Shown: positions 1 to 13,042 of the stretch, one piece after another
Layout: each line of letters opens with the position of its first letter
Numbering within the stretch: the first letter of the stretch is position 1
Translations under genes and position numbers: made by a program
NCBI GenBank assembly: GCA_016930435.1
Contig: JAFGGQ010000011.1
Span: forward strand, 1-26,091
DNA: 26,091 nucleotides
Reading direction: 5' to 3'
DNA from: a bacterium
GTDB lineage: Bacteria > UBP14 > UBA6098 > JAFGQG01
The notes under the pieces: model-generated
Told to the model about the DNA's origin: nothing
The model's database searches: none
Seen by the model: the letters and a program-made list of their open reading frames with translations, nothing else

Positions 1-790
1 CGATATTTCCAATGAGAATAAAAATAATTATTATAACGTGTGCCCATGATTGGGCATCCATTCCCGCGGTAGCGGTATCCGGTTTGTTTATAAGTGTTTC
101 ATACTCGGCAGCGCCTTTAAGCCCGCCCAGCATACCCACGATCTGACCACTTTGCAGGTAGATATAATAATCCGGAGCCATAACCCCGGTAACTCCCCAG
201 GCGATGTCCTGTCCAAATCTCTCCTTAGCAAAGCTTAACCAGGTTACTACGATTGCCGAGCCGCTAAAACTCATGGCAAGGTTAATATCTTCATAGTTTC
301 TGATATTGAGCATAACCGGGATGTCCTGAACGGGGGTTCCGTAATAATCTGTGGGAAACTGTGTATGAATATCCACACCCATGCCCAATACCAGGAGTCC
401 CCATCCGGGCCGGTATCCCAGGAAACAATAGTCCAGGCCATTGATTAAACCGAATTCATCTGCGACTTCTTTAATAACATCTTCGGCCAGACCAACACCC
501 TGAGGATAGAGTGTCATCATCAATAATTTCACCTCACGCTGCGCGCAATGCCGGGCAATAGCTTTTACCATCGGGTATAGCTCCGGCGCGGTTTGGGGAT
601 CGTAATCACTGGAAAGCAGCACCACATCATTAGGGCCCAAATCTTCTATATAATTATAAATGTTCTCCACTTCTTTGGTGATGGGCACTGGTAGTCCCAT
701 AGGTACAAAAAAGGGAATTATGATAGCCAGGGCGAGAATGATATATATGATCCGGCGATCTATGTTCATCAACTTCTCTAAGAATTTCAT
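1..790 (-). CDS. Membrane-anchored protein of unknown function, partial (C-terminus beyond the left edge)
   Basis: I read 263 codons from an ATG at 790 to the window edge with no in-frame stop, so the gene is real but cut. A purine-rich AGGGGG lies just upstream of the ATG. The N-terminus is basic, followed by a membrane segment at about residues 12-32, a soluble alpha/beta-looking domain of about 210 residues, and a second hydrophobic stretch from residue 250 running off the window. The basic N-terminus puts the domain outside the cytoplasm by the positive-inside rule. I do not recognise the family. A short C-terminal part of the domain (about residues 206-233) loosely resembles the end of the DUF6754 domain encoded upstream, but this is only suggestive. 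It follows the 218-codon membrane protein gene by 68 bases and is probably the next gene of the same operon. Confidence 0.8.
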   Translation of the reverse strand, partial: MKFLEKLMNIDRRIIYIILALAIIIPFFVPMGLPVPITKEVENIYNYIEDLGPNDVVLLSSDYDPQTAPELYPMVKAIARHCAQREVKLLMMTLYPQGVGLAEDVIKEVADEFGLINGLDYCFLGYRPGWGLLVLGMGVDIHTQFPTDYYGTPVQDIPVMLNIRNYEDINLAMSFSGSAIVVTWLSFAKERFGQDIAWGVTGVMAPDYYIYLQSGQIVGMLGGLKGAAEYETLINKPDTATAGMDAQSWAHVIIIIFILIGNI

Positions 791-858
791 TTTGCCCCCT
801 TTTGGGTTATGTTCATACTATGTATTCCAAACTTTTTCATTGATCTCTGTCCAAAGTT

Positions 859-1515
859 TTAGTCTCCACCGCCCAGATAGGTGCGCTCGATACCCAGAAT
901 GATTTTCAGTGATACCAGCATCATTCCCAATGCCACTCCAAGCGCTATGGCTCTTTTAGAAGCCATATTGGGAACGTCCATGATCCAATTGGCAATATCA
1001 ACAAGGGATGGCAGATTGGGGTTCCACTTTGTCCAAAAGGAGATGGACTGACCCAGCGGTACCCTTCCTAGCATCACGATCACGGCAGCCAGAAGAAGGC
1101 CGGTCGCCTTGGCGGTTCGAGCCCGGAAAGCCCGATAAGAGGCCGAAGCGATGTAAAATCCCAGCAGGGAAAACATAGTTGCGCTGATGGGAACAAAAAC
1201 ATAATTGTACATATTGGAGAAGAACGATCCGGTTTCCTGACCTCCTATAATAGCTCCCAGCACCATAGACAGCATACAAGCCAGTGTAATAACACTGTAA
1301 AACCATCCGGGAACCTTGCGGCGAATCTTATTGGAATGCAACCGGACGATAGAGTAGAACCCCAGAATCGCTCCAAATGTTGCGATAATAATTGCCCAGT
1401 CCGTGTACCACTCGAATATCGTCTGGGAAATGCGGTGGGGTACAAAGTATTGTATTGCAAAAACCACACCCGCTATAAAGGCAATAGCCAGCGGTAGTTG
1501 TCTCTTCCAGAACAT
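859..1515 (-). CDS. Polytopic membrane protein of unknown function
   Basis: A 218-residue, very hydrophobic protein with about six likely membrane segments (near residues 7-27, 38-58, 70-90, 100-125, 135-150 and 188-208). Basic loops such as the HSNKIRRK and RAFRARTAK stretches give a positive-inside pattern. The ATG at 1515 is preceded by a strong AAGGAGG, which fixes the start. It begins 18 bases after the stop of the upstream DUF6754 gene, so co-translation in one operon is likely. I do not recognise a catalytic motif or transporter signature. From its position it is probably an integral membrane partner of the two DUF6754 proteins and of the truncated membrane protein at the window edge; that role is inferred from context only. 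Confidence 0.88.
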   Translation of the reverse strand: MFWKRQLPLAIAFIAGVVFAIQYFVPHRISQTIFEWYTDWAIIIATFGAILGFYSIVRLHSNKIRRKVPGWFYSVITLACMLSMVLGAIIGGQETGSFFSNMYNYVFVPISATMFSLLGFYIASASYRAFRARTAKATGLLLAAVIVMLGRVPLGQSISFWTKWNPNLPSLVDIANWIMDVPNMASKRAIALGVALGMMLVSLKIILGIERTYLGGGD

Positions 1516-1533
1516 ATTAAGTTCCTCCTTTTA

Positions 1534-4269
1534 TCATTGAGTAACGACTGTGAAGAGGTGATATATCCAATCTTGGTGAACGGTCATCAGTAAAATTCCA
1601 AGTACTATCAGGAACATAACAATGGCTTTTCCGTAATCCTGCGCCTTAAGGGAGCCAACCTGTATCGGCTCATCGGAGAGATATGCGGATGCTGCATACA
1701 ATTCTTCACCAATCAGGGTGTAATCGCAGGTAGTAATAAAGAATGGGATTTGTGTAACGGCGTCGGTGCCGGCGATTTGAATTGCTCCCATTCGCGTGCC
1801 GGTTTCCGCCAGCAGCAATGACTCAGCATAGAACATCCCCATGTAAAAGTTAGTGGCGGTCTTTTCCCGGAGCATAATGCCATTGACCGCAGCGGCGTAT
1901 GCGAACTGAGAAGTAGTTACAAAGAAGACATCCTCTTCCCGGTAAGCATCCGGCCTTCCAGCCTCTATACAGGCCGATTTAACTGTTTCCTGAGCGACCA
2001 GCATAACGATGGGGTCATAGCAGGGAACAATAACCCGGGTATTATATTTAGCAGCGCGGTTGGCTACCCTTCCCAAAACGGTTATACCCGCCAGGGTAGC
2101 AATGTCTCCTATGGAAGATAGACCCAGCACGAAAAGGGCAGGACGGCCCATTTCAGTAGCCCGTCCCAGGGCTTCATCAACATGCTCGATTCCAGCAATG
2201 GGACGAATATAGAACTTCTTTCCCCTTTTGGCATTGTTGAAAAAGTAAAGGGCTACAGAGATAAAAATGACCATTAGAATAAAAACGGTCGCCTTATTGG
2301 TGTCAAATATTTCGTTATGGGCCTTTAGAGGACCCAGGAGCGGAGAATCCACAAAACCTCCGCTGGGAGAGTTTGCCCTAAGGAAATAGTGATAGGCGTA
2401 TTGTGTCGAATCAAGAACATCACGATGCTCACGTGCTGTTGCCGGCAAAGTGGTAAGCTTCTTCGCAAAGTTCATGTCCTCACCATCCCTGAACCGGAAA
2501 ATATCGTAATAATGAGGGGGGATTTCCGGTGAATAGCTGTTAGGCTCGGTAGCATCAATTTCCAGCTCGATATTGGCTTCGGGATGACTCATGGGTTTCC
2601 CACTGGAACCAAGGAACTGTACTGTTAATTTGTGCTGTTCTGGGGAGATTTCCAAAAATTTGAATTTCTCCAGCTCCATACGGTCAACATGCCATTTCCC
2701 TTCATCTAATTTAGCCCGAACAAAACCCACATCCTGCAGAATTTTGTCGATGTAACTATGATGATATGCGCTCTCATAGGAGATAATCAGGTTTTTAGGC
2801 CCGGGTTCGCTGCCCTTGACCCTCTGGTCCTGCCTGACCCACAGTACCTTTGCTATATAATCCATGGGTTCGGTCCATTCCCGGGAACAAACCACTTCAT
2901 GTTGGCCGGTTTCCGGATTGCTCACCAGGTAGCAATTCTGGTCCTCGAAGGAGAACTTTTTGGATTCAAGCTGGGGAGGATTATCCTCTACTACCATATA
3001 TTCTACATATAGCTGTGCTGGTTCCCATTGAACCTGCAGGACATTCCCCCACTTGTCATTTGGGGGTTCGACGAGTGTCAGTCCGGGTGGGAGAAGTATT
3101 TCGCCTACCTCGAAAGCCGAGGGCGTCACAAGTGCTGAACGGGCACTTTGACCCCCCTTGTCGGTAGCTTGTAAATAAAACGATTTGCCCTGAAAAGACT
3201 CCTGGAAATCAATTTTAGCCGAACTCCAATCCGCGCCAAATTCAGAGATCAAATGCCCGAATTCATAGTTTGTGTCTCCCTCATCAGTGTAAAAAAGGCT
3301 AAATTTGCTGATGTCGGAATCTGTTGGTCTCCATCTCATGATAAGTGAATTTTCGGTGGAATCAAGACCGCAAAGCTGGATGAGGGGGGGGGCAGGTATA
3401 TTATCCAAAGTGGTTACCTCAAGTACTTCCGATTCAATCCGGCTGCCGTCCAGGCCCACTGCTACTACCTTGTAAAAAAAGTTTTTACCAATCTCGATAC
3501 CCTCGACATCAACATGTTGAAAAGAAGCGTGGATCATACAATAGCGCTTAGTCTGGGTAACGAATGAGGCTATTTTAAGCCCGTATTTTTTGATATATTT
3601 GCTATTTTCAAGGTCGTTCTCATAGATTTTTTGCTTTTGTTCCAGAAATGCGATTTCATCCGCTGATTTTTCAATTGCTATTTCCAGGGCGTTATCACCG
3701 GATTCAATGGTGTAAAACCCTTCAGCGACATCGGTCAATTTCCCGGTCCGGGTGATAAAATTAGGCCGTGAAGCCTCATCCGCTTGCGCTATGATCTTAA
3801 AATAATCGCCCCGGACATATATCTGTTTCAGTGTATCCAGATCAGGTGGTGCAATCTCTTTTTCAAGGAATAAGACCTTTTCTCCGATCCGGGATAGGCT
3901 GTCCCGGTTTTCTATGTTAGCCTGGATAAGCTTCAGGCTGGGTATCTCGGAATCATTCTCAAGGACAATATAATAGTCATCTTCAATAAGATTATCAGAA
4001 GCCTCAATCCGGGGGATTTCAAAGCCCGACTGAACCCTTTTTTTGGTGATCAGTTTAAGGTCCTCTTCAGAATCTCCCCGCCAGATCTCGTATTCAAGCG
4101 TAGGGGAAGCGTTAAAGTGTATCCAGTTGATCAGAACACCAGTACCGTCATCACTGGGTAGGTCTATTACTTGCAATTCAAGGGGAATCGCCGGTTTTCG
4201 TGCCTCCTTGCACCCTATAAGGGTAAGAAGGAGTAGAAGTATAAATAAAACTCCGAGCTTTTTCAACAT
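1534..4269 (-). CDS. DUF6754-type membrane lipoprotein, downstream copy
   Basis: This 911-residue protein starts with a lipoprotein signal: basic N-terminus, hydrophobic core and LIGC lipobox with the acceptor at Cys20. Residues about 28-650 form a long extracytoplasmic region with fibronectin type III-like stretches (near 28-115, 290-380 and 390-450). A membrane segment at about 660-677 is followed by the basic NNAKRGKK, so the next domain should be cytoplasmic. Residues about 680-875 match what I recall as DUF6754, an alpha/beta domain of unknown function, and a second membrane segment lies at about 882-897. It is a tandem paralogue of the gene at 4447-7182, with the same length. GGGAG precedes the ATG at 4269. 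Family assignment is from memory; function is unknown. Confidence 0.9.
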   Translation of the reverse strand: MLKKLGVLFILLLLLTLIGCKEARKPAIPLELQVIDLPSDDGTGVLINWIHFNASPTLEYEIWRGDSEEDLKLITKKRVQSGFEIPRIEASDNLIEDDYYIVLENDSEIPSLKLIQANIENRDSLSRIGEKVLFLEKEIAPPDLDTLKQIYVRGDYFKIIAQADEASRPNFITRTGKLTDVAEGFYTIESGDNALEIAIEKSADEIAFLEQKQKIYENDLENSKYIKKYGLKIASFVTQTKRYCMIHASFQHVDVEGIEIGKNFFYKVVAVGLDGSRIESEVLEVTTLDNIPAPPLIQLCGLDSTENSLIMRWRPTDSDISKFSLFYTDEGDTNYEFGHLISEFGADWSSAKIDFQESFQGKSFYLQATDKGGQSARSALVTPSAFEVGEILLPPGLTLVEPPNDKWGNVLQVQWEPAQLYVEYMVVEDNPPQLESKKFSFEDQNCYLVSNPETGQHEVVCSREWTEPMDYIAKVLWVRQDQRVKGSEPGPKNLIISYESAYHHSYIDKILQDVGFVRAKLDEGKWHVDRMELEKFKFLEISPEQHKLTVQFLGSSGKPMSHPEANIELEIDATEPNSYSPEIPPHYYDIFRFRDGEDMNFAKKLTTLPATAREHRDVLDSTQYAYHYFLRANSPSGGFVDSPLLGPLKAHNEIFDTNKATVFILMVIFISVALYFFNNAKRGKKFYIRPIAGIEHVDEALGRATEMGRPALFVLGLSSIGDIATLAGITVLGRVANRAAKYNTRVIVPCYDPIVMLVAQETVKSACIEAGRPDAYREEDVFFVTTSQFAYAAAVNGIMLREKTATNFYMGMFYAESLLLAETGTRMGAIQIAGTDAVTQIPFFITTCDYTLIGEELYAASAYLSDEPIQVGSLKAQDYGKAIVMFLIVLGILLMTVHQDWIYHLFTVVTQ

Positions 4270-4446
4270 GGTTCAACTCCCTATTTCGTATGCTTATTAA
4301 TAATGTTTTATCTGATTTATAAACAACAAAAACCACTTTGTTGGTTTATAATTATATTATAGAATTTTTATAATAAATATTTATTGTATTTAGGCAAGTA
4401 TATTTAAAAAAAAATTGATTTTTTTCTCTCAGTATTTTGGTTTTCT
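4270..4446 (-). promoter_or_regulatory. AT-rich spacer between the two DUF6754 genes, with a weak promoter and a small hairpin
   Basis: At 177 bases this is the longest gene-free stretch in the window and is strongly AT-rich. On the minus strand a TTGCCT box (4392-4397) is separated by 16 bases from TATTAT (4370-4375), a fair sigma70-like match. Downstream of it a 6-bp stem AAACCA/TGGTTT (4330-4335 with 4342-4347, loop 6) is followed by a T-rich run. The stem is short and A-T rich, so it may be a weak terminator or attenuator, or nothing. A separate promoter would let the downstream DUF6754 copy and the genes after it be made in a different amount from the upstream genes. Confidence 0.3.
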
Positions 4447-7182
4447 TTACTGGGTGATCACGGTAAAAATATGGTAGATCCAGTCGAGATGGAAGGTCAT
4501 CAGAATAATTCCAAGGAGTATCAAGAAGACTACGATGGCCTTTCCAAAATCCTGCGCTTTCAGTGATCCTACCTGAATCGGGTCATCGGAGAGGTATGCC
4601 GAAGCTGCATATAATTCCTCGCCGATAAGTGTGTAATCGCAGGTTGTAATGAAGAAAGGTATCTGGGTCACGGCGTCGGTTCCGGCGATCTGGATAGCGC
4701 CCATCCGGGTACCCGTTTCAGCCAGCAGCAGGGCCTCTGCATAGAACATGCCCATGTAGAGGTTGGTGGCGGTTTTCTGACGTATCATCATCCCATTGAC
4801 AGCGGCAGCGTAGGCGAACTGGTCGTCGGTAATGAAAAACACATCTTCTTCCCGATATGAATCGGGCCGTCCCGCTTCGATGCAGGCGGACTTTACCGAT
4901 TCCTGAGCGACCAGCATGACGATGGGATCGCAACAGGGTACCAGTACTCTTGTGTTGAACTTTGCGGCTCGTCGGGAGACATGTCCCAGGACGGTTAATC
5001 CTGCTAAAGTGGCGATATCCGAGATGGTGGACAGCCCCAGGACGAAGAGGGCTGGCCGCCCCATTTCAGTTGCCCGGCCCAATGCCTCATCAATATGCTC
5101 TATTCCAGCAATTGGACGAATGTAAAATTTGTGGCCCTTCCGGGCTCGATTGAAAAAGAAAAGGGCGATAGCCACAAAAACTATCATAAGCGCAAATACA
5201 GATGCCTTGTTGGTGTCAAATATCTCGTTCCGGGATTTTAAGGGTCCCAATACCGGTGAGTCTATAAATCCCCCTGAAGGGGAATTGACCCGCAGAAAAT
5301 AATTATAGGCATACTCGCTGGAATCAAGTATATCCCAGTATTCCCGTGATGAAGATGGGAGAGAGTCCAATCTCACTGCCTGCTCAATCTTCTCGTCCTC
5401 CCGAAAACGGAAAACCTCATAATAATGATCGGGTATAGGCGTAGAATAGCTCATAGGAATGGAGGCATCTATATCTAACTTGATCAAAGCTTCCGGATTA
5501 GGCATTGGCTTTCCCGAGGAAGAAAGCCATTGCAGGGTTAATTGGTGAATCTCCGGGGTAAGGTCTTTAATTTTAAAATAACCGATTTCATTCCTGTCAA
5601 CCAACCATTTATGGTTGTCCAATTTTACCCTCACGAATCCTGTTTTTTGCAGTACCCTGTCGATATATCCACGATGAGCGGCTTTATCGTAGGTAATAAC
5701 CAGATTCTTTGAAGATAAATTTTCCTGCTCAGATGGAAAGGATTCTTTGACCCACCGGATTTTACCCATATTAAGCTGTTCCGGGCTCTCAGCAGGTTGT
5801 TGGCTCAAAGTGAATGAAGCATTCAGTGTGTCCTGAAGCAGGAAGAAATCCTTTTCCTCGAAGGGATAAAGCCTAAATTCAATTTTGGGAGGAGCAGTAT
5901 CCTGGATAGCATAAGTCATGTATAATTGGGGTGGATCCCAGCGGACAGACAGAACATTCCCCTTCTGATCGTTGGGGGGTTCTACCAGTTCCAGTCCGGG
6001 CGGAAGTGTAAGGGAAGCCATTTCGAATTTCTCAGGCAGGAATAGGGGAGTGGTACTTTGTTGGCCGCCACGGTCAGATGTGATCATGTATAATGCGGCA
6101 TCCTCAATAGCGCCCTGAAAAGGAATTGCGGTTCTATACCAACTGGAATGAAATTCACCCTGAAGAAACCCTCTGACGCAAAATGAGTCGAGCGGATCAG
6201 TTAAAAAGATGGAATATTTTTCCAGGTCATTATCCGGACTGAACCAGCTTACAAATATCTTCTTTTGGCTGGGGTCATACAGACAATAATCAATATATGG
6301 CGCTTCGGGGTGATTATCCTGGGGTTCCAATGATAAAAGCGGAGATTCTACTATACTATTGTCCTTATTGATCCCTAAAAGCTTGTAATAATAGGTTTTT
6401 CCGCTTTCCAGTTCTCCGGTATCCACATATTCGATGTCAATGCTGGACATTGAATACCGTGTATTCGAGGTAATGAATCCGGAGATCTTTTTCCCGTATT
6501 TAAGTAAATAGCCTTGGATATGTGGTTCCATAAGCCGGACTATTTCAGTATTCTTAAGAAACTCAATTTCATCGGGTCGCTTTTCCAGGGCAATTTCCAG
6601 ATTTCCAATACCGGGTGAGATCTGGAATGAACCATCAGGGCTTTTTTGAAGAACCCCTTTTTGACGGATTATGTCAGGTTTGGTGATTTCCTCGTTCTTC
6701 TCCGGGAGCAAATAATAATCACCCTGTACTACCTGTAGTTGGAGTTTATCATAATCGGGCGGAGAAACTTCCCTTTCCAGGAAAAGCACCTTTTCTCCCA
6801 CCTCTATCAGGCTATCTTTGTTCTGAGCTGTAGCCTTGATCAGTTTCAGAAATGGAGGGTTACTATTGTTTTCCATTACTACATAGTAATCCTGGTCTTT
6901 TAGGTTATCGGTAGCGTCATACTGAGGGGTGACGAAGGATGTCTGGAGTCGTTTAATATTGATCTGTTTGAGTTCTTGGGGTGTTTCCCCCCGCAAAACC
7001 TGATATTCCCTGGTGGGAAAGGCATTGTAATGTTTCCATTTGAGAATGATGGCTGTGCCATCATCACATGGATAATCCAGGAGTTGGAATTCCATGGGTA
7101 ACGGGGATTCCTTGATCTCTTTGCATCCCCAGAAAGAGAACAGAAAAATCCCCAGCAACAGAAAGCCAATTTTTTGGGGCAA
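4447..7182 (-). CDS. DUF6754-type membrane lipoprotein, upstream copy
   Basis: This paralogue of the neighbouring gene also has 911 codons. The start is TTG at 7180-7182, with an AGG-containing Shine-Dalgarno about 8 bases away. The next in-frame Met (residue 30) would remove the signal sequence, so TTG is the better start. The signal has a basic residue, a hydrophobic run and FWGC with Cys20, a slightly non-standard lipobox. Residues about 28-650 are fibronectin III-like and extracytoplasmic. Membrane segments near 660-678 and 882-897 flank the DUF6754 domain. Compared by eye, the last 256 residues match the other copy at 215 positions (84%), while the N-terminal part is far more diverged. 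The differing regions presumably face different partners while the DUF6754 domain keeps a common one. Function is unknown. Confidence 0.9.
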   Translation of the reverse strand: MPQKIGFLLLGIFLFSFWGCKEIKESPLPMEFQLLDYPCDDGTAIILKWKHYNAFPTREYQVLRGETPQELKQINIKRLQTSFVTPQYDATDNLKDQDYYVVMENNSNPPFLKLIKATAQNKDSLIEVGEKVLFLEREVSPPDYDKLQLQVVQGDYYLLPEKNEEITKPDIIRQKGVLQKSPDGSFQISPGIGNLEIALEKRPDEIEFLKNTEIVRLMEPHIQGYLLKYGKKISGFITSNTRYSMSSIDIEYVDTGELESGKTYYYKLLGINKDNSIVESPLLSLEPQDNHPEAPYIDYCLYDPSQKKIFVSWFSPDNDLEKYSIFLTDPLDSFCVRGFLQGEFHSSWYRTAIPFQGAIEDAALYMITSDRGGQQSTTPLFLPEKFEMASLTLPPGLELVEPPNDQKGNVLSVRWDPPQLYMTYAIQDTAPPKIEFRLYPFEEKDFFLLQDTLNASFTLSQQPAESPEQLNMGKIRWVKESFPSEQENLSSKNLVITYDKAAHRGYIDRVLQKTGFVRVKLDNHKWLVDRNEIGYFKIKDLTPEIHQLTLQWLSSSGKPMPNPEALIKLDIDASIPMSYSTPIPDHYYEVFRFREDEKIEQAVRLDSLPSSSREYWDILDSSEYAYNYFLRVNSPSGGFIDSPVLGPLKSRNEIFDTNKASVFALMIVFVAIALFFFNRARKGHKFYIRPIAGIEHIDEALGRATEMGRPALFVLGLSTISDIATLAGLTVLGHVSRRAAKFNTRVLVPCCDPIVMLVAQESVKSACIEAGRPDSYREEDVFFITDDQFAYAAAVNGMMIRQKTATNLYMGMFYAEALLLAETGTRMGAIQIAGTDAVTQIPFFITTCDYTLIGEELYAASAYLSDDPIQVGSLKAQDFGKAIVVFLILLGIILMTFHLDWIYHIFTVITQ

Positions 7183-7224
7183 CTTTATTACCTGCCGGTA
7201 TTAAAATGGTTTTAATGGTGGCCT

Positions 7225-8355
7225 CTATTCCTCGATAACCTCCACATTTGCCCGAGGAATTAACACTCTTACGCCGTCTTCGAATTCTACTTCAAGTACA
7301 CGGGCGACGGATTCGGACTCCAGGACTTTTAAATCTGGTGGCAGATCGGTAACCCTTCCGATCTTGCCGAAATATGGAACCCTGATAGCTCTGACTTTGG
7401 AACCTACGAGGACGCCTTTACCCCCAGATTCCGATGTACCCGCCTCTTTTTGCTCATGATGATCCTTATGAGTTATAACAACTTCAGGTCGGATAACCCC
7501 TGCCCTTATTTGAGTTGACCCGTTAATGGAAACCTCTTCACCTTCATATTTAGATAGTAGTTCGAAGGTGTGATGAGCCATGGGAATTTCACTAAATCCT
7601 TCAGTTACAACAAGTGTGCACGGGATCTTTTCCGAACCGGTGATGGCTACTCCGATATCATAACCAAGGAATTCCCTCAGGTCTTTATCATCGAATCCGC
7701 CTACTACGATACCACTTACCCCATGTTCACATGCAGTTGTCAGTGCCTGAGCAGAGATGAAGCTACCCGCGACCAGGATTTTGCCCCTGTGCTTTTCGGT
7801 AATGTCTGAGGGCTCAACGGTCTTACCGGGATCATCTACGATTTTTTCCAGTTTACCGAAGTTTTCCCCACCGATCCCAAAAATGCCTTGGATCAGGCAA
7901 GCACGGCTCTCTATCACGGCTCCCTCTTCCGGAATGACCTCGATAACTTCACCACTGATATAGGCGGTGACATTTATAGGTGAAGGTTCTCCCCTGATAA
8001 TGATCTGTCCGGTTATGTCCGAAATGCTCTCTAAACTGCCTTTGAAAGGCCCCCGGTAAGAGGTCTTCAAGAATCCAAAGATTCCCTTGGTTTGGGCTAT
8101 CAATTCGCCTCGTTCAAATTTGTCACCGGGTTTTTTTTTCATTACCAGTTCGATATCTTTAGCTTCAACGTTGAGTTTCCCCGAAATGTTAACGGCTTCG
8201 GCTTTCCCGGGCAGAAAGGTCTCAGCTATGATTGTATCGGGCAATACTTTGTCTCCTACTTTGACCAGAACATCCCCTTTCAAAGGGAGAATTCTTTGTT
8301 TACGTACTGTGGTAAACTCGGTAACTTTTAATCCAGGTGTATAGACATGTCCCAT
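7225..8355 (-). CDS. Beta-barrel adaptor-like protein with barrel-sandwich and KOW-like segments
   Basis: A soluble 376-residue protein with no signal or membrane segment, therefore cytoplasmic. Residues about 20-160 contain three repeats of the turn seen in biotinyl/lipoyl-type barrel-sandwich folds: KGDVLVKVGDKV (26-37), KKPGDKFERGELIA (74-87) and SGEVIEVIPEEGAVIES (134-150). No obvious modifiable lysine motif is present. Residues 190-290 look alpha/beta, with a glycine-rich strand GVSGIVVGG. The C-terminus (about 316-376) has a KOW/SH3-like pattern: VGSKVRAIRVPYFGKIGRV then a short barrel. AAGGAAG precedes the ATG at 8355, and the gene starts 2 bases after the GlmL-type gene stops, so the two are translationally coupled. 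I infer an adaptor between that ATPase and the membrane proteins; no enzymatic function is visible. Confidence 0.88.
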   Translation of the reverse strand: MGHVYTPGLKVTEFTTVRKQRILPLKGDVLVKVGDKVLPDTIIAETFLPGKAEAVNISGKLNVEAKDIELVMKKKPGDKFERGELIAQTKGIFGFLKTSYRGPFKGSLESISDITGQIIIRGEPSPINVTAYISGEVIEVIPEEGAVIESRACLIQGIFGIGGENFGKLEKIVDDPGKTVEPSDITEKHRGKILVAGSFISAQALTTACEHGVSGIVVGGFDDKDLREFLGYDIGVAITGSEKIPCTLVVTEGFSEIPMAHHTFELLSKYEGEEVSINGSTQIRAGVIRPEVVITHKDHHEQKEAGTSESGGKGVLVGSKVRAIRVPYFGKIGRVTDLPPDLKVLESESVARVLEVEFEDGVRVLIPRANVEVIEE

Positions 8356-8357
8356 TT

Positions 8358-10190
8358 TTACTTCCTTTTATTTAATATTGAAGAAGGATAAACATCCAGG
8401 GATGTCAACCATTCGCTCAATTTCCTAATTCTCTCGCTATCATCCAGTGGCAATTGCATTGGCCGGCCCCTTCCGTCCAGGATGATTCCAACAACTCCAC
8501 CCTTTATCAGGGATTCCATTTTGTTGCCTGCGCCGTTACCCAGGTCGAATTTACGGCCGGGTTCGAAGGCGGCTTCGGCAGTTTCGCCAACTCCCAGGGG
8601 GATACGTTTGATCTCACCGAATTTGAGTGTGCCTTCCTCATTTTTTCCTCCGGGGAGCTGTAAGTTGTATTTCATGATTTCATTACCCTCGGTCCGGTCC
8701 TTATTGCTTCCTCCAACAGGAGCGATACAGGTCCCCAGATGGATCAGGCAATCCTTGTTAAAAACTTCAGTAGCGGCTTTAGCATGAATATCGGTTAACA
8801 CTCCTAATTGAGGCATCATAAAGATTGAATCCACGGCAAGATCGGTTATGCCTTCGGGTTGAAATGCGTCGATGAGCATAATAGCGGCCTGATTTCGCCG
8901 TGGTGCATGGGAAAGCACTCCACCGGAGCCTACCAGCATATTTAAGGTCATCATGTTTACCATGGTGTCTGATTGCGCCTGGGAGAAAGTGTCAGCAAGG
9001 GTGCGCAACCGCTGAACACCTTTTAATGTGGTAGCGAAAGATTTGTGCTGAATAAAGGCCAGCCGTAAAGCTTCCCGGGCTATTCCCTGCTCAAATACCA
9101 GTTCCTCCAAACTCTGAGGTATTGTTGTTGGTCTTACCATTTTATTCTTGACCCTGTTTCGAAGGTCCCGTTCGTCGAGATGAAAGGGTACCCATCGCAT
9201 AACGTTTTCCAGTCCGGTTTCAGCAAAAACATTGGAGACCGAGTAACTCATTCCCAGGTTCGCCGAGACGGTCCGGTTAAAAGTATTCTGGAATACGCTG
9301 AAGATATCGGTAGTTGCTCCGCCGATATCAACCCCTACGATCTCTATATTTTCAAGATCCGAGATGGTTTTCATAATCAGGCCTACAGCCCCGGGAGTGG
9401 GCATAATAGGGGCGTCGCACCATTTCATCAGTTTTTTATAACCAGGGGCCTGGGCCATGACATGCTCCATGAACAGGTCATGTATTTTTTCCCGTGCTGG
9501 TCTGAGGTTCTCCTGTTCCAGTACAGGCCGCAGGTTTTCTACGGTGTCCAATGAAGTTTTACCTGCCAGCGAGTTGGATACAGCCTCCCGGGCATCAATA
9601 TTACCTGCATAAATGACGGGGAGTTTGTAACCGATACCCAATCTCGGTTTGGGGTCAGCAGCAGAGATAACCTCGGCTAATTCAACCACGTGTGTGATGG
9701 TCCCGCCATCGATCCCTCCGGAGAGAAGGATCATGTCCGGCCGAAGCTGGCGAATTCGCTCTATCTTTTCATGAGCCATACGGTTATCGTTAGTAGCGAT
9801 AACATCCATAACGATCGCTCCGGCACCGAGTGCAGCCCGTTCGGCGCTTTCAGCAGTCATTTCCCGGACTACCCCGGCGCACATCATTTGTAATCCACCC
9901 CCTGCGGATGAAGTGGAAATATAAATATCACAACCTACATTACCATTTGCCGGGCGGATGATCTGCTGATTCTCGTCAATTAACGTCTTACCGGTCAATT
10001 CCTCCACCTCGCCAACCGCGTTTAAAACCCCCATGGTGACGTCCTCGAATGGGGCTTCAACCGTTGTAGGGGCTTCACCCCTGACAACCAATCGGTATTC
10101 CCCGTCTTTCAACTCGATCAGGATAGCTTTGGTTGTCGTGCTACCGCAGTCAGTTGCTAAAATTACCTTTATATCTTCAGGATTTTTCAT
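8358..10190 (-). CDS. glmL: GlmL/MutL-family actin-like ATPase
   Basis: This 610-residue protein has the ASKHA (actin/Hsp70-like) ATP-binding motifs: phosphate-1 loop TDCGSTTTK at 13-21, phosphate-2 loop DIGGATTD at 288-295, and glycine-rich LLSGGIDGG at 155-163 and VGSGGVLSHAP at 420-430. Family members related to GlmL reactivate or chaperone B12-dependent glutamate mutase. Classical GlmL is about 460 residues, so this belongs to a longer subgroup. No glutamate mutase subunit or B12-binding protein is encoded in the window, so that role is doubtful here and a partnership with the downstream barrel protein and DUF6754 proteins is more likely. The ATG at 10190 has AGGAAGGAG upstream and lies inside the end of the preceding gene (14-base overlap). 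Family call firm; function inferred. Confidence 0.92.
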   Translation of the reverse strand: MKNPEDIKVILATDCGSTTTKAILIELKDGEYRLVVRGEAPTTVEAPFEDVTMGVLNAVGEVEELTGKTLIDENQQIIRPANGNVGCDIYISTSSAGGGLQMMCAGVVREMTAESAERAALGAGAIVMDVIATNDNRMAHEKIERIRQLRPDMILLSGGIDGGTITHVVELAEVISAADPKPRLGIGYKLPVIYAGNIDAREAVSNSLAGKTSLDTVENLRPVLEQENLRPAREKIHDLFMEHVMAQAPGYKKLMKWCDAPIMPTPGAVGLIMKTISDLENIEIVGVDIGGATTDIFSVFQNTFNRTVSANLGMSYSVSNVFAETGLENVMRWVPFHLDERDLRNRVKNKMVRPTTIPQSLEELVFEQGIAREALRLAFIQHKSFATTLKGVQRLRTLADTFSQAQSDTMVNMMTLNMLVGSGGVLSHAPRRNQAAIMLIDAFQPEGITDLAVDSIFMMPQLGVLTDIHAKAATEVFNKDCLIHLGTCIAPVGGSNKDRTEGNEIMKYNLQLPGGKNEEGTLKFGEIKRIPLGVGETAEAAFEPGRKFDLGNGAGNKMESLIKGGVVGIILDGRGRPMQLPLDDSERIRKLSEWLTSLDVYPSSILNKRK

Positions 10191-10578
10191 CGAGCTTTCT
10201 CCTTCCTATCCATTTGGCCCAAAAGCCATGCTTTTTTCTTTCGGTTTTGAGAGCGCTTCTTTTTTGAGAATATTCGATTTCATGCTCTTCTATTTTATCA
10301 ATTAATAAGCTAATTCCTTCTCTCTTGGCAATAGCCCTGCGGAACTCAATAAAATCTTTGCCCTTAAATAGCAGACTAAGATAAGGCTCGAAGAAGAGAG
10401 TAACCTGGCTGGCAACGTAATTAAGAGGTTTCACCTGCTCAAGGAACATCACCGCGGGAACAGTCATCTGCCATTCAGCAACCTTTTTACCAAGTTTATC
10501 AAGTATAGCGATCTGGGCTTCTGTACACTCTTCCGAGAATTCGGCTTCCGGATCGAAACGAAGCCAATAATCCTGCAT
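10177..10578 (-). CDS. Small soluble protein of unknown function
   Basis: A 133-residue protein without signal or membrane segment. The middle (about 38-75) is hydrophobic and aromatic-rich (PAVMFLEQVKPLNYVASQV), followed by a charged helical region and a very basic tail (about 108-133, many Lys and Arg). AGGAG sits at the right distance from the ATG at 10578, and the 3' end overlaps the GlmL-family gene by 14 bases, which supports both reading frames and translational coupling. I do not recognise a named family. The tight coupling suggests it works with the ATPase, for example as a regulatory or docking subunit, and the basic tail could contact nucleic acid, an acidic partner or the membrane surface. 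Those suggestions are inference. Confidence 0.8.
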   Translation of the reverse strand: MQDYWLRFDPEAEFSEECTEAQIAILDKLGKKVAEWQMTVPAVMFLEQVKPLNYVASQVTLFFEPYLSLLFKGKDFIEFRRAIAKREGISLLIDKIEEHEIEYSQKRSALKTERKKHGFWAKWIGRRKLDEKS

Positions 10579-10607
10579 ATTCAGGTCTCCTGATTTTTTG
10601 TTGTAAT

Positions 10608-11003
10608 TTAAAATTTATCAGCAACAAAATCAAGCATTTTTTTGTTTTTGGGATAAATATACCAGGCTCTGTACCGGTTCAGCCAATGGGGCTTTTCAAA
10701 AGGACTTAGGAATACTCCATTGTCTTTTTCCACAAACCTTTTGAAATAACTCCATGGCTGCTGCTTGTTGATACCCAGATAGGTTTCTGTGACCCCTTCT
10801 TCATCCAGTTTAAAGGTAGTCGGGAAGAAAAAGCGGCCACATCCAAAAGTAAGCAAAAGCATCGCAAAAAACCCAAAATAGAGGCTGTTCATGAATATTA
10901 CCGATGCAATACCAGTAAGAATTATTACTACAATTGCGATTACCATTCTGACTTTATGTTCTTTCGCAGGAAAAACCTGCCATATAATCTCCTCATTATT
11001 CAT
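10608..11003 (-). CDS. Small two-TM protein with a PH-like cytoplasmic domain
   Basis: The 131-residue protein has two adjacent membrane segments (about 19-39 and 42-60) forming a hairpin, followed by a soluble part of about 70 residues. The pattern (TFKLDEEGVTETYLG, then aromatic-rich strands ending in a short helix) resembles small bacterial PH-like domains such as YcxB-type proteins. Basic residues before the first segment and the following charged part both suggest cytoplasmic termini. It starts 2 bases after the stop of the 72-codon gene and has no purine-rich ribosome-binding site of its own, so translation must rely on coupling to that gene. Function is unknown; it probably anchors or regulates the membrane complex encoded downstream. 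Confidence 0.78.
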   Translation of the reverse strand: MNNEEIIWQVFPAKEHKVRMVIAIVVIILTGIASVIFMNSLYFGFFAMLLLTFGCGRFFFPTTFKLDEEGVTETYLGINKQQPWSYFKRFVEKDNGVFLSPFEKPHWLNRYRAWYIYPKNKKMLDFVADKF

Positions 11004-11005
11004 TG

Positions 11006-11224
11006 TTATGAGGAGGGAGGAGGTTGCAGCCTTTCTTTTTCAAGATGCTGTAGTTCCTCCATGAATTCTTCCGGAGTTATGATCTTCTTTTTAATCAGAA
11101 GGATAACTAAAGCTTCCTGGGAGAGGTTGTTTGTCAGGCATAATTCCTCGAAGCTGATGTCCCTTTCCTGACCATCGATGATAACTTTGAGCAAGGGCGG
11201 TTTTTGCTGATAGTCGTTTTCCAT
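11006..11224 (-). CDS. Small acidic protein of unknown function
   Basis: A 72-residue protein starting at ATG 11224 with AAAGGTG close upstream, 12 bases after the stop of the 601-codon gene. It is predicted to be soluble: a short beta-like opening (LLKVIIDGQERDISFEEL) followed by helices including LVILLIKKKIITPEEFMEEL, then a Pro/Ser-rich tail. The helical stretch looks like short oligomerisation modules such as SHOCT, but I cannot assign it. Its placement between the 601-codon gene and the 131-codon membrane gene, with only 2 bases before the next ATG, supports it as a real operon member despite its size. Confidence 0.68.
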   Translation of the reverse strand: MENDYQQKPPLLKVIIDGQERDISFEELCLTNNLSQEALVILLIKKKIITPEEFMEELQHLEKERLQPPPSS

Positions 11225-11236
11225 AGCACCTTTATC

Positions 11237-13042
11237 CTATTGTATGCGCACGAAATGATCCCGGTTAAATTTAAGAATAGTAGCCTGAGTATTAGCTCCG
11301 GTGGGGTCGAAGGTAATATTTTGAGATGCTCCCTGGTAATTCTTGATGCCGGAAAGGTAATCCCGGACAACCTCAGGATAGAAAGCCCCGTTGGAAATTG
11401 CTTTTCCCAGAATACCAAGGGCGTCATAACCGAGAGCCGCGAACTTATCTGGCTTCTCATCGTACTTTGTGTTGTATTTTCTGGCGAACCCAAACCATAT
11501 TTTAGAACTTTCATCCACATAAAAATCATCCGGAATGAAGATGGCGCTATCTGCGTAAACCCGGCCGATCTTTTTGACCTCTTCCAGGTTCCAGCCATTA
11601 GCTCCCAGGATTTGAGTTTTGATATAATTAAATGGAATTTGGGGAAGGATAAGGGAGAGTTCGCTGGAATATGCGGGTAAGAACAGGGCATCCAGTTTTA
11701 CTTCCCATTCGTGACGGGGTTTTAGTTTTCCGTATTCATCATAAAAAGTGCTGTCCGTTGTATCAGCTTCAGCAACAAGGAGGTCCATCTTCTTTAAAAG
11801 AGGTTCTTTTATCTCGATGAAGTCTATAGTAAAGTCGATTTTATCTTCGCCGTAGAACCGGATATCCATGGCTTTAATCCCGGAATTTTCCAATGCATTT
11901 TTAAAGGCGGTGGCCATACTATGCCCGTATTTATCATCCGGCGCCAGGATAGCGAACAGCGAATCTTTGAGCGAATCGACAGCGAACCGGGCCAATATCT
12001 TTCCGCAGTATTCCGGGGTAATGGCTAACTGGAATACAAAGGGGCTTATCGTGCTGAGATTATCCCGGGAAGCGGTAGGAGTGATCATGGGAACCCGGTA
12101 CTGGTCTGCAAGTATGGCAAGGGGAACCGCAGTTTCACTGAGTAAAGGGCCGACAATTGCCACCGGAGTCTCGGATTCAAGGAGCTTCTTGACCTCCTCG
12201 ACAGCAACAAGAGGGTCTCCCTGGGAGTCCAGTTCGATGATCCTGAGTTCCTGGTCAAAACTGCTTTGATAATCCGCCTGTCCGATTTTCATCCCTCGCA
12301 GGATCCGCTCACCATATTCCTGGTATGTTCCGGACAATGGAAGAACCGCGACTATCGAAAGCTGCCGGGTAAGCCGTTGTTCCGCACCCTTGGAAAATGA
12401 TTGCAGGTTCTTTTGATATTTACTTTCAGGAAATTTTTGGTTGAACTTATTTATCTCCTCCAGAAGTAAAGCCAGTTTGCCCTGATTATAGAGATGTTTG
12501 ATGGCATAAAAATGAATTATCTCTTCAGCAGGTTCGCCGCTGAAACGCCTCTTTAAAACGTTGATCTCCTCTGGATTGAGATAACCCCAGAGCAGCCTTT
12601 CCAGAGAGATAGTGATATTATCCCGGAAAGTGGTCTTTGGGGAGAGCAATGTGGAGAATTGTACCGCGCTATTATAGAAATCGCCAATATAATAATCGGA
12701 GCTGGCAATATAATAACGGGCGTAGTTCCGCAGCGAATGGTCAGGAAATTTAGCCATGAATTCCCTGAATTCCTCTGAGGCGTTGACCCATTTCTGGGCT
12801 TTAAAGCTGCTCAAGGCTTCCATATAGTATGAGGCGGCCAAATATTCATGATTTTGGGATATCTGGTTGAAATTAGAGAAGAGTTCATGGGCCTCCTCAT
12901 AAGCCCCTTCATTGAAAGCGATCATTGCAAGTTCAAAGCGCTGAATATCAGTTTTATCCTGACCATACAATTGATTATAAAAAGAAACCGTCAGGAATAT
13001 CCAACTGAATAGTATTATTGCTTTAAAGGTCGGATTGTTCAT
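11237..13042 (-). CDS. Exported TPR plus periplasmic-binding-protein-like protein (type 1, LivK/LpoA-like)
   Basis: A 601-residue secreted protein: N-terminal signal peptide with probable cleavage after LYG near residue 27. A helical region of about 180 residues with TPR-like pairs (repeated A..F..G.Y.EA and YY-rich stretches) resembles YbgF/outer-membrane assembly repeats. From about residue 227 a type-1 periplasmic-binding fold begins with IVAVLPLSGTYQEYGERI, continues through VAIVGPLLSETAVPLA and FAILAPDDKYGHS, and is close to the branched-chain amino-acid receptor family. No ABC permease or ATPase lies nearby, so transport is not indicated. The same architecture occurs in LpoA, the activator of penicillin-binding protein 1A, which is an alternative role. 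It starts 12 bases after the DUF151 gene and has no clear Shine-Dalgarno, so its translation is probably coupled. Confidence 0.87.
   Translation of the reverse strand: MNNPTFKAIILFSWIFLTVSFYNQLYGQDKTDIQRFELAMIAFNEGAYEEAHELFSNFNQISQNHEYLAASYYMEALSSFKAQKWVNASEEFREFMAKFPDHSLRNYARYYIASSDYYIGDFYNSAVQFSTLLSPKTTFRDNITISLERLLWGYLNPEEINVLKRRFSGEPAEEIIHFYAIKHLYNQGKLALLLEEINKFNQKFPESKYQKNLQSFSKGAEQRLTRQLSIVAVLPLSGTYQEYGERILRGMKIGQADYQSSFDQELRIIELDSQGDPLVAVEEVKKLLESETPVAIVGPLLSETAVPLAILADQYRVPMITPTASRDNLSTISPFVFQLAITPEYCGKILARFAVDSLKDSLFAILAPDDKYGHSMATAFKNALENSGIKAMDIRFYGEDKIDFTIDFIEIKEPLLKKMDLLVAEADTTDSTFYDEYGKLKPRHEWEVKLDALFLPAYSSELSLILPQIPFNYIKTQILGANGWNLEEVKKIGRVYADSAIFIPDDFYVDESSKIWFGFARKYNTKYDEKPDKFAALGYDALGILGKAISNGAFYPEVVRDYLSGIKNYQGASQNITFDPTGANTQATILKFNRDHFVRIQ

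Follow-up and report, generated by a model that had tools for sequence, protein, structure and literature searches.

The window analysed here is an entire contig (C126) of 26,091 bases from a draft genome of 2.85 Mb that is 90% complete. Its positions 1-11224 carry nine open reading frames of 72, 131, 133, 610, 376, 911, 911, 218 and at least 263 codons, all on the minus strand, just as a preliminary description of this DNA had listed them. From upstream to downstream, the intergenic distances are 2, 29, −14 (an overlap), 2, 42, 177, 18 and 68 bases. The gaps are mostly under 70 bases, as was also claimed, with the single exception of the 177 bases between the two 911-codon genes. We named the genes as follows:

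11006..11224, minus strand: I, a 72-residue protein found mostly in the window's phylum, with one weak match elsewhere (L127)
10608..11003, minus strand: H, 131 residues, two predicted transmembrane (TM) segments and a YcxB/PH-like tail (sub-threshold YcxB match)
10177..10578, minus strand: G, a small soluble protein of 133 residues, whose gene in other phyla often precedes that of GlmL
8358..10190, minus strand: F, a long GlmL-type (PF13941) actin-fold ATPase of 610 residues (Pfam E 2.3e-126)
7225..8355, minus strand: E (E376), a putative soluble adaptor of 376 residues with a barrel-sandwich hybrid region (weak RnfC_N and Biotin_lipoyl family matches)
4447..7182, minus strand: C2, the first DUF6754 protein, 911 residues, TTG start (PF20539, E 1.7e-114)
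1534..4269, minus strand: C1, the second DUF6754 protein, 911 residues, with an N-terminal lipobox-like LIGC (PF20539, E 7.9e-117)
859..1515, minus strand: B, a membrane protein of 218 residues with six predicted TM helices, N-in/C-in by hydropathy and charge, and invariant residues in a cross-phylum alignment
2..790, minus strand: A, at least 263 residues, predicted as TM, extracytoplasmic Rossmann-like domain, TM (AlphaFold2 model of the G011 homologue; charge), cut by the contig end

Because the contig stops inside A, the window contains only part of the cluster. In G011, from the window's family, A is followed by one further core gene, X (L023/L038), encoding a 209-residue membrane protein with the motif SFLYKDNPFYKFAEH; its position lies past the window's contig end. 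Besides F, C2 and C1, none of the remaining seven cluster proteins matched a Pfam family over its cut-off. Upstream of 11224, after a gap of 12 bases, the co-directional run continues with genes for proteins of 601, 155 and 246 residues and then ribosomal L9/S18/S6, the families being LivJ/LppC-like (601 residues), bifunctional nuclease domain, DUF3307 and ribosomal proteins. The extent first given for the cluster, 1-11224, is thus right for the nine genes, but the run starts farther upstream and the last gene is incomplete.

The 601-residue protein (11237-13042, minus strand) combines a TPR-like N-terminus with a Peripla_BP_6/LppC-like domain, an arrangement that recalls LpoA, and its gene immediately precedes the cluster in two families of this phylum. 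A search against Rfam found no match. Predicted promoters and terminators were discarded, their numbers being those of shuffled controls. An in-frame TGA in two DUF6754 matches (G257 and G121) is an ordinary stop that closes the reading frame.

Both 911-residue proteins match DUF6754 at residues 651-905 (389.4 and 381.7 bits, cut-off 27), in agreement with the domain assignment in the preliminary description, and with E values of 1.7e-114 or lower they are clear members of a family that has no recorded function. In the window copies, C consists of a signal- or lipoprotein-like N-terminus, an outer region of about 600 residues, a TM segment, DUF6754 and a last TM segment. C1 and C2 are 41% identical over residues 1-580 and 81% identical over residues 600-911; the inner core is therefore the constrained part of C. 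In other phyla, C is often just 260-450 residues long. The tandem DUF6754 pair and the outer region of about 600 residues are not part of the core of the system, being limited to the window's lineage and a few others.

An AlphaFold2 model of C1 residues 585-911 (pLDDT 82) contains an fn3-like domain, a TM segment, a Rossmann-like domain and a second TM segment. Within the modelled fragment, pLDDT is lowest (52-63 over most of 231-280) in the part of DUF6754 with the most invariant residues, at about 225-280; such a drop is expected of a segment that gains order only on binding a partner. We infer that this stretch may be a partner interface. The model of the A homologue from G011 (pLDDT 92) shows a TM segment, a Rossmann-like domain and a TM segment, and by charge A is N-in/C-in. 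Positive-inside charges place DUF6754 inside and the domain of A outside, all topology assignments being predictions from hydropathy and charge; the cytoplasmic DUF6754 and extracytoplasmic N-terminal region proposed earlier agree with this.

Fold searches with the DUF6754 and A domains gave middling, non-specific matches to many unrelated Rossmann-like chains (best Z scores 9.7 and 9.5) and no Foldseek match under E 1e-3. The two models are alike: the Rossmann-like domain directly precedes the last TM segment, and the junction carries a G-x-x-x-A-Q-like motif. Homology between DUF6754 and A is unsupported, since the profile-profile score (24.6) is no higher than that of a shuffled/reversed-column control (24.9). 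No sequence relatives of DUF6754, B or X were found in the PDB, Pfam has no entry for the A, B and X families, and none of the membrane subunits matched a known family of transporters, secretion or assembly proteins.

We wondered whether the cluster could encode a trans-membrane sensor, in which the outer parts of C and A would bind a ligand, DUF6754 with E376 and GlmL would relay the signal, and ATP turnover would set a state without performing work. The variable outer regions over a conserved inner core resemble receptor diversification, and the fn3-like domain in the C1 model lies outside. However, two conserved polytopic subunits exceed what a receptor needs, no signalling gene recurs beside the cluster across lineages, and C is short and lacks a large outer region in G212 (a genome of 0.9 Mb) and in Chloroflexota. 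We consider a sensor unlikely, and prefer transport or assembly by a membrane machine because an ATPase and two polytopic subunits make up the conserved mass.

The adaptor E376 has no predicted TM segments. Among ten members of its family, six show weak RnfC_N matches and five Biotin_lipoyl matches, the window's own E376 scoring below the Pfam cut-off for RnfC_N (13.6 vs 25.6 bits). Its middle part has a very weak RraA-like match (E 0.012), and its C-terminus appears KOW-like by eye. GlmL is joined to an E376-like region in a second GlmL protein of the window's genome (contig C36, 921 residues) and in Fermentibacterota, where in several MAGs the fusion shares a contig with C-B-A-X. This fusion, in a sister subfamily, suggests that GlmL and E376 touch each other, and fits the ATPase-adaptor contact proposed from the window. 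The fusion gene on C36 (L021:6659-9424, minus strand) has a serine protease, TsaE, a response regulator/PglZ, a histidine kinase and SerRS as neighbours, with no DUF6754 nearby.

The barrel-sandwich region could also point to an ion- or electron-transport complex, in which E376 would act like the corresponding subunit of Rnf or Nqr and the Rossmann-like domains of C and A would bind cofactors; the fusion has an NQRA_N match (E 1.1e-9) in addition to the RnfC_N-like matches of E376 members. Yet only this small domain is shared with the N-termini of RnfC and NqrA, the E376 alignment has no invariant cysteine, no Fe-S or flavin domain of RnfC or NqrA was matched, and the partners differ. DUF6754 shows no evident GxGxxG-type loop, and its fold matches, like those of A, are non-specific. 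We therefore give such a complex somewhat less credit than a sensor, and continue to favour an ATP-driven machine that moves or assembles a substrate.

To place the cluster in a wider context, we collected relatives, of which at least 518 were found among 84,980 species genomes. The best 80 of them come from UBP14, Cloacimonadota, Fermentibacterota, TA06, WOR-3, Eisenbacteria, Effluviviaceae, Poribacteria, Mcinerneyibacteriota and others. The conserved operon can be written (H-G)-GlmL-E376-[DUF6754-B-A-X]n. Gene maps of the window's phylum, where 16 of 17 genomes have DUF6754, show a constant E376-C-B-A-X order wherever contigs allow, and complete H-G-GlmL-E376-C-B-A-X operons occur in Poribacteria, Effluviviaceae and Eisenbacteria. 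The C-B-A-X block is present two or three times in several genomes, and in 58 of the 88 cases with room to see the genes after C, these are B-A-X. Of 20 further loci, one of them from a 0.9 Mb genome, most keep this order or show a variant. G homologues were found at 12 of 20 sampled loci of other genomes, and G is preceded by H in Poribacteria, Eisenbacteria and other groups. Beyond these genes, no universal neighbour was found, only lineage-specific ones; in the window's phylum, housekeeping genes flank the cluster. The parts first named as the system do belong to it, but its core is larger, including B, A and X and often G and H.

Several Chloroflexota genomes have the order C-B-A-X-GlmL-E376. 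In G398, which we take to be Chloroflexus aurantiacus J-10-fl, C-B-A-X-GlmL is found with E376 far off elsewhere in the chromosome. The same arrangement is present in G390, which is Herpetosiphon aurantiacus 114-95T (PMC3368417); the phylum name Chloroflexota rests on this identification. In this phylum C is short, and A has 815-1480 residues and in most copies an N-terminal zinc ribbon, the rest of its large extra region matching no Pfam family above cut-off. Examples of enlarged A copies are L166:10070-14410, L167:3395-7837, L168:9775-12222 and L172:11451-14441.

Some loci depart from the common plan. In Fermentibacterota (L057, L059, L074, L084, L090, L094, L099 and L101), a lone DUF6754 gene of about 385 codons is not followed by B-A-X, and several of the genomes with such a gene also carry a C-B-A-X unit; WOR-3 has stand-alone DUF6754 genes too. 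G073, a single-contig genome of 5.0 Mb (C1:3818019-3818780, L120), has C, an A of 449 residues and X, with GlmL-long, E376 and B not detected, and may represent a reduced form. DUF6754 was found without detectable GlmL-long or E376 in G092, G232 and G270, the last of which is 83% complete.

We examined co-occurrence in a sample of 290 genomes, 273 of them outside the window's phylum, counting a GlmL as long when its open frame reached at least 550 residues and adding five broken long copies. DUF6754 was present in 88 genomes, PF13941 in 99, and E376 in 84 by tally, or 82 without two weak or fusion-only matches. Outside the window's phylum, the counts (both/first only/second only/neither) were 67/5/2/199 for DUF6754 and GlmL-long (p = 5e-55), 67/5/0/201 for DUF6754 and E376 (p = 2e-58), and 66/1/3/203 for E376 and GlmL-long (p = 2e-58); these p-values ignore shared ancestry and are too small in absolute terms, because related genomes are not independent. 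Within the 121 sampled Chloroflexota genomes, 34 had DUF6754, and GlmL was found in 33 of these vs 22 of the 87 without it (33/1/22/65, p = 7e-14). Counted from coordinates, DUF6754 and GlmL lie within 12 kb in 27 of the 34, and at least some matches in the remainder sit at a contig end. The three families therefore co-occur far beyond chance and are often neighbours, as the preliminary description had anticipated, and conservation of the neighbourhood no better than chance, which it had named as the opposite outcome, was not what we found.

We asked whether an old operon might simply be kept by co-expression of functionally separate proteins that form no joint machine. E376 has DUF6754 as a near neighbour in 43 of 81 genomes, GlmL in 57 of 80 and at least one of the two in 69 of 80, contig breaks accounting for part of the separation; in G170, however, GlmL and E376 lie 7.7 kb apart on a different contig from C-B-A-X. 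This ability of E376/GlmL to sit apart from C-B-A-X, together with the flanking housekeeping genes in the window's phylum, would fit mere co-expression. Against it, co-presence is near-perfect even without linkage (in 11 genomes that contain all three families, E376 is not close to either partner, in some of them because of contig breaks), the gene order differs in Chloroflexota, C-B-A-X is duplicated as a unit, and GlmL and E376 are fused. A set of functionally separate proteins is thus improbable, and a joint membrane machine remains our preferred reading.

The 610-residue ATPase matches PF13941 with 422.7 bits (cut-off 27) over profile positions 1-450 of 450, which bears out its earlier assignment as GlmL-type. 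The phosphate and adenosine motifs of the ASKHA fold are conserved in GlmL-long (DCGSTTTKAIL, DIGGATTDIFSV and GSGGVLSHAP); with these nucleotide-site motifs kept, it is predicted to be an ASKHA-type ATPase. The full-length PF13941 similarity and these motifs are shared with GlmL/MutL of glutamate mutase (NF040745, TIGR01319) and Or-4 of ornithine degradation (NF040744). Unlike them, the window ATPase carries a C-terminal extension of about 130 residues relative to short forms, reads TVSANLGMSYS where short GlmL has TVEGDLGV, scores below the NF040745 (GlmL) equivalog cut-off (228.3 vs 475 bits) and the TIGR01319 (GlmL family) subfamily cut-off (163.3 vs 204.05 bits) and also below the cut-off for Or-4, and has membrane-protein neighbours. 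In a tree with long branches, the short, fused and long forms separate, long from short with 99/98 support. No viral relatives of the ATPase were found. Its TAL-effector matches in a PDB search were treated as spurious, no stretch passing alone.

The glutamate mutase E family (PF06368) had no match in the window's own draft genome, and passed the cut-off in only 6 of the 290 genomes. The partnership of the ATPase with glutamate mutase, which the preliminary description had set against its own reading, is accordingly not seen. Among genomes with only short GlmL, DUF6754 was present in none of seven, and of the five clear glutamate mutase genes, four come from genomes that have short GlmL (G093, G122, G235 and G134). 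G134, the sole DUF6754 genome with a clear glutamate mutase E, has both GlmL forms at separate loci, and the mutase adjoins the short one, not the long one. That the ATPase is a chaperone or reactivase of a B12-dependent mutase, with the membrane genes nearby by coincidence, is therefore very improbable in spite of its PF13941 membership and full-length similarity to the GlmL and Or-4 models, given the rarity of the mutase, its place beside short GlmL, the split in the tree and the low scores under the NCBIfam models. Anti-phage defence was also rejected, as the nine window genes and X gave 0 PADLOC-DB 2.0.0 HMM matches at E up to 0.001.

The cluster had been called an envelope system. Omp85 was found in 86 of the 88 DUF6754 genomes vs 186 of the 202 others, a difference that is not significant (p = 0.11), and the two exceptions, G075 and G216 from one Chloroflexota genus, carry the system with Omp85 not detected. 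An outer membrane is thus not needed, and 'cytoplasmic-membrane system' is the better term. Taken as a whole, the first interpretation is partly supported.

From gene order, co-presence, fusion and predicted topology, we think it probable that the gene products assemble into a single multi-subunit complex in the cytoplasmic membrane, with an actin-fold ATPase operating from the cytoplasm. The fuller proposal, to which we give about an even chance, is an unrecognised ATP-driven cytoplasmic-membrane machine, in which the GlmL-type ATPase drives a C-B-A-X core and moves or assembles some substrate, in many phyla including Omp85-lacking Chloroflexota and in at least one cultured species. The membrane part would comprise polytopic B and X together with double-TM C and A, so that one Rossmann-like domain, DUF6754, faces the cytoplasm and the other, that of A, the outside, with a large variable outer region on C in some lineages and an enlarged A in others. 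GlmL-long and the adaptor E376 would form the cytoplasmic part. ATP binding and hydrolysis by GlmL may alter its grip, through E376, on DUF6754 and on the conserved cytoplasmic loops of B, and the TM helices would pass this change on to A and the outer region; H and G would have accessory roles. Most likely, the machine uses ATP to move or assemble something at the cytoplasmic membrane or across it.

In PilM/PilNO and GspL-type assemblies, a cytoplasmic actin-fold protein is attached to membrane proteins that reach outside. This likeness concerns only how such a machine might work; no homology was found, and the window GlmL belongs to another branch. Pilus and type II secretion families gave no match at E up to 1 with the nine cluster proteins and the A and X alignments, and none was among the families shown for B. 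We count the system as new because no known system has its set of parts, the ATPase itself coming from a known superfamily. No publication on it was found in open-access literature, in line with the earlier view that it is apparently undescribed; it is also conserved, with a recurrent order across phyla. DUF6754 goes unmentioned in the 5.4 million open-access papers searched, and GlmL-like terms returned nothing relevant there; the novelty is provisional, as the search was mostly open-access.

Few multi-gene membrane systems are conserved across many phyla and yet lack a recorded function. Herpetosiphon aurantiacus is cultured and carries this one, so that purification and microscopy are possible. 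The system would give one branch of GlmL ATPases a role outside B12 metabolism, and annotations of this branch as GlmL, made by similarity to the glutamate mutase accessory protein, are therefore probably misleading.
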